From JAUWCW01 sp030609125 [NCBI: Candidatus Rokuibacteriota bacterium] (GTDB taxonomy: Bacteria; JAUVQV01), in assembly GCA_030609125.1 (NCBI GenBank), contig JAUWCW010000180.1, positions 1 to 5,004 on the forward strand: DNA of 5,004 nt, written 5' to 3'. Under the pieces are notes generated by a model. The model was not told the origin of the DNA and made no database searches. It was given only the letters and a program-made list of their open reading frames with translations. Shown here piece after piece: positions 2,487-5,004 of this stretch (positions are counted from its first letter, which is position 1; the number at the start of each line of letters is the position of its first letter). The position numbers and the translations under genes are program-made.

Positions 2487-2548
2487 CATCTTTTGCCTTG
2501 ACACCCTTTTTCCTGTCAAGTGAAGATATCCGGCAGGACTCCAAAACC
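2487..2548 (+). repeat. 62-nt structured repeat, copy 1
   Basis: This sequence recurs at 4943-5004 in the same orientation, with 59 of 62 bases identical and the first 44 (2487-2530) exactly so. It holds the inverted repeat CTTGACA-N10-TGTCAAG (2497-2503 / 2514-2520). Outer arms ATCTT (2488-2492) and AAGAT (2523-2527) extend it across a small internal loop. The central loop is CCCTTTTTCC. It ends 20 nt before the ATG of the flavoprotein gene. A perfect TTGACA (2498-2503) could be a -35, but no good -10 follows at 16-18 bp. The role is open: regulator-binding site, RNA element, or dispersed repeat. Confidence 0.85.
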
Positions 2549-2568: not shown

Positions 2569-3894
2569 ATGGATTCTCTTGAACTTCCAGACCCGTCTGA
2601 CATCGCGGTCATAGGAGGAGGCCCGGCCGGGACCTTCTTCAGCATCTTCGCCCTCCAGATGGCCAGAATGGTCGACAAAAACCTCAACCTCACGATTTAT
2701 GAACCCAAGGACTTTGCAGGTGAAGGGCCCTCCGGCTGCAACCGGTGCGGTGGAGTCGTCTCGGAGCTGTTGGTCCAGACGCTGGCGGTGGAGGGAATCA
2801 ACCTGCCGGAGTCGGTCGTTCAGAGGGGAATCAACTCTTACCGCCTTCACACCGCGAAGGGAAGCGTGTACATCAAGGCCCCCTCCAACGAGCATTCCAT
2901 AGCCACCGTCTACAGGGGAGGAGGGCCGAAGGGAGTCGTCGCGGAGGGGAAACAAAGCTTCGACGGCTTTCTTCTCGACCTCGCAAAAAGGGAGGGGGCG
3001 TCGCTGAGAAGGGAAAAGGTGAGCCGGGTAGAAGAAAAGAACGGCCGCCCCATGCTTTACACCCGGGACGGCCTGCTCCAGAAGGCGGACCTCGTCGTCG
3101 GTGCGTTCGGCGTGAACAGCCCGTCAGCCAGGGTATTCCGCGACTGTGATTTCGGATACAGCCCGCCGAAGACAATCAAAACCGCCATTGCCGAGATAGA
3201 ATTCAAAAGAGACATCATCCCCGAACATTTCGGCAACTCCATACATCTTTTCCTGCTTCCCGAAAGGGACATTAAATTCGCGGCGTTGATCCCCAAACAG
3301 ACCCATCTCACCCTCTGTGTCCTGGGGAAGAACATGAGCAAAAGCCGGGTCAGCGATTTTCTCTCCCATCCCGTGGTGAAAGGGGCGATGCCCCCGGGCG
3401 AGCGCTACGAGCTCTCCTGCACCTGTTTTCCTAAAATGAACGTCGGCGCTTCCCCCAGGCCGTACACCGCCCGGATCGTAATGTGGGGTGACGCCGGATC
3501 GACGCGCCTTTTCAAGGACGGCATTGGAGCAGCCTATCGCACCGGCAAGGCGGCCGCCTCTACCGCCATGTTTCACGGTGTCGGCAGGAGACATTTCGCG
3601 GACACGTTTTACAAGGTCCACCGGAGCATCGTGATAGACAACTGGTTCGGGCGGTATCTCTTCTTCATCACCGGCCTTTACAAGAAGCACGGCCTGATGA
3701 CGAGCGGCATGCTCAATGTGGTGGAAGACGAGCAGAAAGACCCCGAAAGCCGCCGGAGACTGAGCTACATCCTCTGGAACATGTTCACCGGAAGCGAGCG
3801 CTACAAAACCATCTTCCTCAAGGCGGTGGACCTGCCGATGCACCTGGACCTCTGGAAGGAGTTCGCCGGAATACTGTCAGGGAGAAGACCATGA
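2569..3894 (+). CDS. FAD-dependent oxidoreductase, geranylgeranyl-reductase superfamily
   Basis: This 441-residue flavoprotein is related to the geranylgeranyl reductase / PHBH-like group, which reduces isoprenoid double bonds or oxidises substrates with FAD. The N-terminal dinucleotide fold has IAVIGGGPAGT (12-22, GxGxxG) followed by the acidic end of strand 2 (IYEPKD, 43-48). The second FAD motif MWGDAG sits at 305-310, followed by a conserved DGIGAAYRTGKAAA helix (317-330). An unusual CNRCGG (C57, C60) lies near the flavin end. The C-terminal roughly 90 residues form a helical tail (DNWFGRYLFFITGL 357-370; LWNMFTG 402-408) that could sit at the membrane surface; there is no clear transmembrane helix. 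The ATG at 2569 is chosen because AAGGA (2555-2559) lies 9 nt upstream; a TTG at 2560 would lengthen it by 3 residues. Its stop overlaps the next start by 4 nt. The substrate is unknown. Confidence 0.8.
   Translation: MDSLELPDPSDIAVIGGGPAGTFFSIFALQMARMVDKNLNLTIYEPKDFAGEGPSGCNRCGGVVSELLVQTLAVEGINLPESVVQRGINSYRLHTAKGSVYIKAPSNEHSIATVYRGGGPKGVVAEGKQSFDGFLLDLAKREGASLRREKVSRVEEKNGRPMLYTRDGLLQKADLVVGAFGVNSPSARVFRDCDFGYSPPKTIKTAIAEIEFKRDIIPEHFGNSIHLFLLPERDIKFAALIPKQTHLTLCVLGKNMSKSRVSDFLSHPVVKGAMPPGERYELSCTCFPKMNVGASPRPYTARIVMWGDAGSTRLFKDGIGAAYRTGKAAASTAMFHGVGRRHFADTFYKVHRSIVIDNWFGRYLFFITGLYKKHGLMTSGMLNVVEDEQKDPESRRRLSYILWNMFTGSERYKTIFLKAVDLPMHLDLWKEFAGILSGRRP
3881..3887 (+). promoter_or_regulatory. 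Ribosome binding site within the flavoprotein 3' end
   Basis: GGAGAAG lies 3 nt before the ATG at 3891 (its GGAG core 6 nt away) and inside the last codons of the upstream gene. With the ATGA overlap it implies translational coupling of the pair. Confidence 0.55.
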
Positions 3895-4757
3895 GAAGCA
3901 ACAGGCTGGGAAAAGAGTACCAGGGCGGAGAGGTGATCTTCCGTGAGGGAGACAAGGGCGATGTCATGTATGTCATCCAGTCCGGCGAGGTGGTTCTCAC
4001 GAAGAAAACTCCTTCGGGGGAATACACCCTGGCCTGCCTGGGAGCCGGTGAGATCCTCGGCGAAATGGCCCTTTTCGACAAGAAACCCAGGTCCGCGACC
4101 GCCACGGCCTCCGGCCCGGCGAGGCTTCTATCGGTGGACAAGCACAAGCTCTTTGAAAGCGTAAGCAACGATCCGACCCTGCTCTTCCGGATCCTGGAGA
4201 CAGGCGCCGGACGGCTGCGGAAGATAGGCGACGAGCTGACGACCGCCAGAAAACTGATAGCGGCGTTTCTCGAAACTTCCGCCAGCCTCGAGGAGACCTG
4301 CCGGATGATCATGGAGGAATGCAAAGAGGTCGTTCAGGCGGAAAACGGCTCACTGATGTTTCTCGACGACAGCGAAGCGAATCTCGCGGTGACCGCCGCC
4401 TTCGGCGCCGAGTCGGACCTCAAAATCCTCTTCAAGCCGGGCGAGGGGATTGCCGGCCGGGTTCTGCTGTCGGGAAAAGCTGAACGGATAGATGACGTCT
4501 CCGGCGACCCGGACTACGTCAAGGGAAACATCGAGATCCGATCCCTCCTCTGCGCACCGCTGAAAAACCAGGGTATGATTTTCGGCGTCATCAACATGAG
4601 CAGAACCTCGGGGCAATCCTTTGACGGCGAAGACCTCAGAGTGCTCATGTCGCTGGCCAATTTCGCGTCCATCGCCGTTCACAACGCCCTGCACTTCTCC
4701 CGCATCCACTCCACCATGCGCAAGCTGTCAATCCAGGCGTCGCTTCTGGACCTCTAG
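3891..4757 (+). CDS. Cyclic-nucleotide-binding (cNMP) + GAF domain sensor protein
   Basis: This 288-residue two-domain regulator has no DNA-binding or enzymatic output domain. Residues about 8-105 form a cNMP-binding beta-roll (GEVIFREGDKGDVMYVIQSGEV, 13-34). Its phosphate-binding cassette is GEMALFDKKPRSAT (57-70), where E58 and R67 are the expected ribose and phosphate contacts, so it looks competent to bind a cyclic nucleotide. Residues about 106-127 form a linker helix. Residues about 128-268 form a GAF domain (NGSLMFLDD 152-160; PGEGIAGRVLLSGKAERIDDV 183-203; RSLLCAPLKNQGMIFGVINM 217-236). A short tail ends in SLLDL. It overlaps the upstream flavoprotein gene by 4 nt (ATGA), so the two are co-translated and it may regulate or partner that enzyme; this is inference. 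It is probably cytosolic. A foldback element begins one base after its stop, so the natural C-terminus might have been altered, though the GAF domain is complete. Confidence 0.85.
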   Translation: MRSNRLGKEYQGGEVIFREGDKGDVMYVIQSGEVVLTKKTPSGEYTLACLGAGEILGEMALFDKKPRSATATASGPARLLSVDKHKLFESVSNDPTLLFRILETGAGRLRKIGDELTTARKLIAAFLETSASLEETCRMIMEECKEVVQAENGSLMFLDDSEANLAVTAAFGAESDLKILFKPGEGIAGRVLLSGKAERIDDVSGDPDYVKGNIEIRSLLCAPLKNQGMIFGVINMSRTSGQSFDGEDLRVLMSLANFASIAVHNALHFSRIHSTMRKLSIQASLLDL

Positions 4758-4931
4758 CCCGGATATTTCATGAACTTCGTTGCGAGAGCGTGGAGATTAC
4801 GTAAGATCAAGGGCTTTGCGCAGTTGAGCGGGTGAAGCTGTGCTGAAGCACAGCAAGGTCGTGAGACAAGAAAAGTCCTTGAGATCGCGTGATATCCTCG
4901 CTCGCAGCAGATGGCTCATGAAATTTCCGGG
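4758..4931. mobile_element. 174-bp foldback MITE-like element with 16-bp terminal inverted repeats
   Basis: The left end CCCGGATATTTCATGA (4758-4773) and the right end 4916-4931 are reverse complements at 15 of 16 positions (mismatch at 4764). Inner sequence is also imperfectly palindromic: TTGCGAGAGCG on the left matches TGCGAGCG on the right complement, and AAGGGCTTT matches AAGGACTTT. At the centre is a perfect 7-bp hairpin GCTGTGC-TGAA-GCACAGC (4837-4854). No ORF inside looks real, so it would need a transposase in trans. It abuts the stop codon of the cNMP/GAF gene. Flanks are CTAG on the left and CCAG on the right, so no exact target duplication is visible. No U-run follows the hairpin, so it is not a clear terminator. 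Confidence 0.75.
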
Positions 4932-4942
4932 CCAGTGTGCTG

Positions 4943-5004
4943 CATCTTTTGCCTTGACACCCTTTTTCCTGTCAAGTGAAGATATCGGGCAGGACACCAA
5001 GACC
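4943..5004 (+). repeat. 62-nt structured repeat, copy 2 (reaches window edge)
   Basis: Same orientation as 2487-2548, differing only at 4987 (G for C), 4996 (A for T) and 5001 (G for A). All three changes lie outside the CTTGACA/TGTCAAG hairpin (4953-4959 / 4970-4976), which is fully conserved. It begins 11 nt after the foldback element and may continue beyond the window. By analogy with copy 1, a gene start may lie a short way to the right. Confidence 0.85.

Follow-up and report, generated by a model that had tools for sequence, protein, structure and literature searches.

The locus and its genes

The window, that is the whole stretch of DNA analysed here, is an entire contig (C334, 5004 bp) of the draft genome JAUWCW01 sp030609125, which comprises 2,316,609 bases in 376 contigs and is 92% complete and 2% contaminated. 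Three genes follow one another on the plus strand: a TreT (trehalose-synthase-like) glycosyltransferase (1089-2456; PF21269, E 1.2e-40; its start codon was chosen by us), a GGR-like FAD flavoprotein (2569-3894; NCBIfam TIGR02032 at E 4.5e-12, below the curated cut-off) and a cyclic-nucleotide-binding and GAF protein, CRP-GAF (3891-4757; Pfam PF00027 and PF01590). The flavoprotein stop and the CRP-GAF start overlap by 4 nt, and a methyltransferase-like frame, named from a reading of its translation, occupies the left end of the window on the minus strand. At 815-893, a REP-like inverted repeat of 25 bp (96% complementary; TATGGGGTCAGCCCTTGAATCGTGA) has only weak partial matches in the surveyed contigs.

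The flavoprotein and CRP-GAF genes (2569-4757) form a recurring two-gene unit of unassigned function. At five loci in other genomes a CRP-GAF relative comes after a flavoprotein relative, the CRP-GAF match covering the whole protein at one (L010), 154 residues at a second (L029) and no more than the nucleotide-binding part, 112-121 residues, at the remaining three (L011, L012 and L016). The seven wider stretches around flavoprotein matches yielded no relative of the TreT or methyltransferase proteins, and no flavoprotein relatives were found in viral contigs or plasmids.

A 62-nt segment in two copies

A repeat search within the window returned a direct repeat of 62 nt, both copies on the plus strand, at 2487-2548 (copy 1) and 4943-5004 (copy 2), with 59/62 positions identical (95%), the next-best direct repeat (30 nt at 70%) being far below this pair. 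Copy 1 lies between the TreT stop codon (2454-2456) and the flavoprotein ATG (2569); copy 2 is cut by the end of the contig. Each contains the dyad CTTGACA-N10-TGTCAAG (2497-2520 in copy 1, with arms at 2497-2503 and 2514-2520 around a 10-nt loop; 4953-4976 in copy 2), a putative operator that is also a hairpin stem, and the outer arms ATCTT/AAGAT show no difference between the copies. The three differences fall at repeat positions 45, 54 and 59, leaving the first 44 nt identical, non-palindromic parts included; the chance that three random changes all land in the last 18 of 62 positions is 0.022, a post hoc and marginal value. The earlier note had described this arrangement, a duplicated 62-nt hairpin repeat on one strand whose three differences fall in the 3' third, off the hairpin, and whose first copy ends 20 nt before the flavoprotein ATG, and our searches bear it out on each point.

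When the 62-mer was shuffled 2000 times by mononucleotides, 35 of the shuffles contained a perfect 7+7 dyad with a loop of 3-15 nt; the dyad is unusual for this composition but not extreme. On its left side the repeat has a sharp edge; the right edge of copy 2 is hidden by the contig end at 5004, so that 62 nt is a lower bound on repeat length and any gene downstream of copy 2 would lie off the contig. The final 18 nt of the contig recur nowhere else in the bin with two mismatches or fewer, and that gene could therefore not be located; a tandem flavoprotein paralogue in this position was considered and rejected, there being no second flavoprotein match in the bin. A GTG frame of 20 codons from 2520 overlaps the flavoprotein start, and in it two of the three copy differences are silent and one exchanges Lys and Arg; no ribosome site was seen by eye before this GTG, and three changes prove nothing.

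A palindromic repeat family 5' of copy 2

Between the CRP-GAF stop and copy 2 lies a MITE-like palindromic repeat of 174 bp (4758-4931, plus strand), with ctag as its left and ccag as its right flank; the TAG stop of CRP-GAF sits within the CTAG directly 5' of it. When 4757-4942 was compared with its own genome, 34 matching pieces were obtained, including 13 of at least 160 nt at 94-100% (the window among them) and one further piece of 103 nt at 99% that was ended by a contig edge. In the sampled contigs, both ends could be recognised in 12 copies with the 174-bp core and in three short forms of 69-75 bp. The 4-bp flanks are identical in 7 of the 12 (ctag in five, ccag and ttaa in one each) and unlike in the other five, to which the window copy (ctag/ccag) belongs. 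Inverted ends, target-site duplication and multiple copies are thus largely in evidence, and the family resembles MITEs that insert at a CTAG-like target. The element stands directly 5' of copy 2, which lay 7 nt after the CRP-GAF stop before the insertion. Copies are also present in L076-L086, L089, L091 and L092, as imperfect palindromes and many at 94-98%. The surveyed contigs also hold five copies of another repeat family, ~183 nt long, whose inverted ends lie around ACGCAAGAATAA (L056:43-226, L087:1933-2116, L091:12292-12475, L084:3276-3457 and L109:6-187).

The MITE-like repeat, being common to many contigs of the bin, ties the window's contig to that bin; mis-binning was considered and is unlikely, as 4757-4942 matches many other bin contigs at 94-99%. 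Composition agrees weakly with the bin: tetranucleotide similarity between the window and 17 readable contigs is 0.991 (the contigs' own range being 0.989-0.998) and drops to 0.985 for the part of the window from 901 on, two of eight loci from other genomes reach 0.985 and 0.987, and the G+C content of 58.6% is close to the minimum of 54 readable stretches (58.4-70.1%). The MITE-like family, abundant in the genome and linking the contig to its bin, is the more useful by-product of the analysis.

Copy number and search for relatives

Searches of the 2.3-Mb assembly by BLAST, by a pattern with up to three mismatches and by a covariance model found two copies of the 62-mer, on one contig and on the same strand. 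All five fetched contigs under 3 kb were wholly N, and repeat copies on such contigs could be missed. Among 386 genomes only its own was positive, with no match in the other 385 (a set that takes in a smaller set of 60); the counts of 0/4 and 0/12 in two other phyla come from sets without a positive genome and are thus uninformative. The searched collection includes just two genomes of the own phylum, so that absence elsewhere says little on the age of the repeat. No match to 2457-2570 was found in phage or plasmid records, nor to the element in viral contigs. One further covariance-model match, at E 9.4 in the relative G001, stands in sequence that we take to resemble a co-chaperonin gene on the reverse strand, and it was therefore set aside as chance.

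As a baseline, 55 readable contigs (401,396 bases, ~1/6 of the genome; 5 of 60 were left out as N) were compared all against all at 88% or more over 40-400 nt, 20 of them chosen for carrying the MITE-like repeat, which inflates that family. Four groups emerged, two being parts of the one MITE-like family, the third the ~183-nt family (5 copies) and the fourth the 62-mer pair. No second same-contig pair of this size was seen in the 55 contigs; pairs across contigs would mostly be missed at this sample size.

That the 62-mer might be a dispersed REP-like repeat, as the earlier note had offered, with many genomic copies in random orientation and position, found no support in the BLAST, pattern or covariance searches of its own genome: they located two copies on one strand, there was no match in the 385 other genomes, and the dispersed repeat of this locus is a different element, the one 5' of copy 2. 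As a MITE the 62-mer does not qualify either: it has two copies, its dyad is internal, its last 21 nt lie outside the dyad and no target-site duplication was seen.

Putative promoter and operator features

The left arm of the dyad holds a perfect TTGACA (2498-2503), and GAAGAT follows at 2522-2527 after an 18-nt spacer; with hexamers 16-18 nt apart as the criterion, 2498-2527 on the plus strand is a putative weak sigma-70-type promoter whose -10 candidate matches TATAAT at 3/6 positions. A stricter promoter scan did not report it. All three copy differences lie 3' of the putative -10. In 175 upstream regions of the same genome (27,675 bases, that of copy 1 included), there are 16 TTGACA sites, mononucleotide shuffles giving 3.7 on average (maximum 11), and 8 of the 16 have TA...T at a spacing of 16-18 nt; this enrichment, and a partner at half of the sites, suggest that a standard -35 is in use in this genome. 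The TTGACA box that the earlier note saw in the repeat is real and of a kind enriched in sampled upstream regions, often with a -10-like partner. In copy 1 it lies 71 nt 5' of the start codon, the 16 upstream sites spanning 35-196. The other strand of the upstream regions has almost as many TTGACA sites (14 versus 16), and because the dyad is symmetric its own opposite strand carries TTGACA too, with an equal-scoring -10 candidate (CAAAAG, 3/6).

Among 116 sampled TTGACA sites, the -10 candidate has 4-5 matches at 35, three at 36 and fewer at 45, which puts 71/116 (copy 1 included) at three or more, compared with ~20% of random positions, and leaves 35/116 with a better candidate than that of copy 1. 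GAAGAT would therefore be a middling -10: possible but weak, of the sort that would need or obey a regulator. Repressors often bind across the -35 and the spacer.

These features suggest a reading that we put forward as our first choice, tentatively, namely that the two 62-mers are duplicates of one regulatory segment from between genes, each holding a weak sigma-70-type promoter with an operator dyad and standing before a transcription unit of its own. The promoter would be TTGACA-N18-GAAGAT, with the dyad overlapping the -35 box and the spacer; a dimeric transcription regulator would bind CTTGACA-N10-TGTCAAG, and the remainder of the 62-mer would form the start of the transcript. Copy 1 would drive the flavoprotein/CRP-GAF pair from a predicted start near 2534, through a leader of ~35 nt in which AAGGA (2555-2559) may serve as the ribosome site of the flavoprotein, and copy 2 would drive the next unit past the contig end. 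It is by inference that we speak of an active promoter, a bound regulator and a gene following copy 2.

The layout is in keeping with such a duplicated promoter: copy 1 stands between co-directional genes and copy 2 just 3' of a gene, 7 nt away once the MITE-like element is set aside. Counting for it as well are the TTGACA enrichment, the shared first 44 nt and a similarly built dyad 5' of the flavoprotein homologue at L070, one of five such homologues examined in other genomes. Counting against it are the poor -10, passed over by the stricter scan, the opposite-strand TTGACA results, the lack of a third copy in our searches and the other four homologues, whose upstream 150 nt (two of the five starts being approximate) have no dyad of at least 6 bp; a TTGAC/GTCAA dyad is found upstream of none of the five. 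The L070 dyad, TTTGAAT-N9-ATTCAAA from -60 (L070:7705-7727), resembles that of the 62-mer in build and place but differs in its letters. In the same upstream region a second palindrome overlaps it. Judged as an operator or regulon, the 62-mer offers two dyad copies and one known downstream gene. A regulator site common to several units, as the earlier note had proposed, is compatible with these data and is their best reading; the several units come down to two copies in the assembly, with the gene of copy 2 off the contig. The more ambitious form of this proposal, in which the 62-mer would be a lineage-specific regulated promoter cassette and part of a small undescribed regulon linking the flavoprotein/CRP-GAF pair to the unit past the contig end, seems to us unlikely.

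Alternative explanations

Nearly as likely as a duplicated promoter is a neutral short duplication, to which we give perhaps one chance in three: an intergenic segment of 62 nt or longer would have been copied once, 2.4 kb away, without shared function, by ordinary recombination or rearrangement around the flavoprotein/CRP-GAF pair. The finding of only two copies, close together, on the same strand and 5% diverged, agrees with such an event, as does the lack of any match to the 62-mer outside its own genome, and the MITE-like and REP-like repeats in the region make rearrangement plausible. It fits less well with the placement of the copies, copy 1 filling a short intergenic gap and copy 2 beginning right after a gene, or with the confinement of all three changes to the last 18 nt (a post hoc p of about 0.02).

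That the segment works as RNA, a hairpin in the leader or at the 3' end of the preceding transcript acting on translation or mRNA stability, we regard as improbable. A stem-loop of 7 pairs plus outer arms is predicted at -13.1 kcal/mol for copy 1 and -12.4 kcal/mol for copy 2, the placement (copy 1 between a stop and a start codon, copy 2 after a stop codon) would suit it, and the 41-nt hairpin folded as single-stranded DNA beats 197 of 200 shuffles (z -2.67), the whole 62-mer as DNA being beaten by 17 of 200. As RNA, however, the fold is less exceptional, with z -1.85 for copy 1 (-0.40 when its leader is included) and -0.57 for copy 2, and with 9 and 54 of 200 shuffles folding as well or better for copies 1 and 2, respectively. 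No T-run follows the stem, which excludes an intrinsic terminator, and the repeat is not among the two terminator sites predicted in the window. No Rfam family reaches its gathering score there, the best permissive match (8.4 bits against a threshold of 70 bits) lying outside the repeat. The stem is invariant in both copies, so that no variant copy offers a compensatory change. An RNA structure for the 62-mer is thus weakly supported by the folding models, and the RNA control element that the earlier note had suggested keeps its predicted hairpin, with folding modestly above shuffles for copy 1 and hardly above them for copy 2, and no Rfam match at gathering score.

Least probable, in our view, is that the 62-mers bound, in attL/attR-like or cassette-like fashion, a 2.4-kb segment that was inserted or can be excised and that carries the flavoprotein/CRP-GAF pair: the direct repeats do flank exactly this pair and the MITE-like element, and the pair recurs at five other loci with none of its TreT or methyltransferase neighbours in the seven wider stretches, but the three proteins examined include no integrase or recombinase and the 62-mer has no integron site of the GTTRRRY type, the core of attC, its plus strand lacking GTT altogether and the sole GTT on the reverse strand of copy 1 (GGTTTTG) giving no fit.

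If the 62-mer is a shared promoter/operator, it would provide a first handle on the regulation of the flavoprotein/CRP-GAF pair in a sparsely sampled phylum; if it is not, we are left with a small duplication at one locus. Either way it is a modest finding of an ordinary kind.

Comparison with known systems

A pattern scan of contigs from other genomes gave six loci, four of which are one orthologous crtE/crtD-like region, one a Brasilonema reading frame and one a Bacillota contig; with ~2 chance loci expected from uniform-base arithmetic, three independent places are near chance. The four orthologous loci (L005, L006, L007 and L009) are a divergent region of Rhizobiales, its crtE-like and crtD-like genes named from reading of translations, in which TTGCCTTGACA-N8-TGTCAAGNGAAGATGTC resembles the 62-mer over 38 nt (79-82%); it differs in having a loop of 8 instead of 10 and in standing between different genes. 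Over 160 kb of chosen sources the covariance model scores L007 at E 0.0083 and the remaining three loci at E 0.07, and because the search pattern had demanded 20 of those letters the scores are not independent evidence. The likeness may be fortuitous, or the two sequences may have converged on a -35 box combined with a dyad. The TTGCCTTGACA-N8-TGTCAAGNGAAGATGTC block is itself strongly conserved between the crtE-like and crtD-like genes at the four loci, and a TGT-N12-ACA that overlaps its left arm has what we take to be the form of a PpsR/CrtJ site. In the passages of PMC5504672 that contain the two hexamers, these are merely parts of primers, and the palindrome there is a different one.

Prokaryotic MITEs are matched at this locus by the repeat at 4758-4931, with its 174 bp, inverted ends, many near-identical copies and CTAG-like 4-bp flanks, and not by the 62-mer itself. 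REPs usually number more than 100 copies per genome (PMC2817692). The 62-mer is like REP/BIME elements in being a short extragenic palindrome and unlike them in its two copies and single orientation. In the HrcA/CIRCE system the operator dyad, an inverted repeat with a 9-nt spacer, overlaps a sigma-70-type promoter. The 62-mer departs from this system in its half-site, CTTGACA, which matched no known regulator, in its poor -10 and in having two copies only, and it shares with HrcA/CIRCE-type operators an inverted repeat whose arms are about as far apart and which stands next to the start of an operon.
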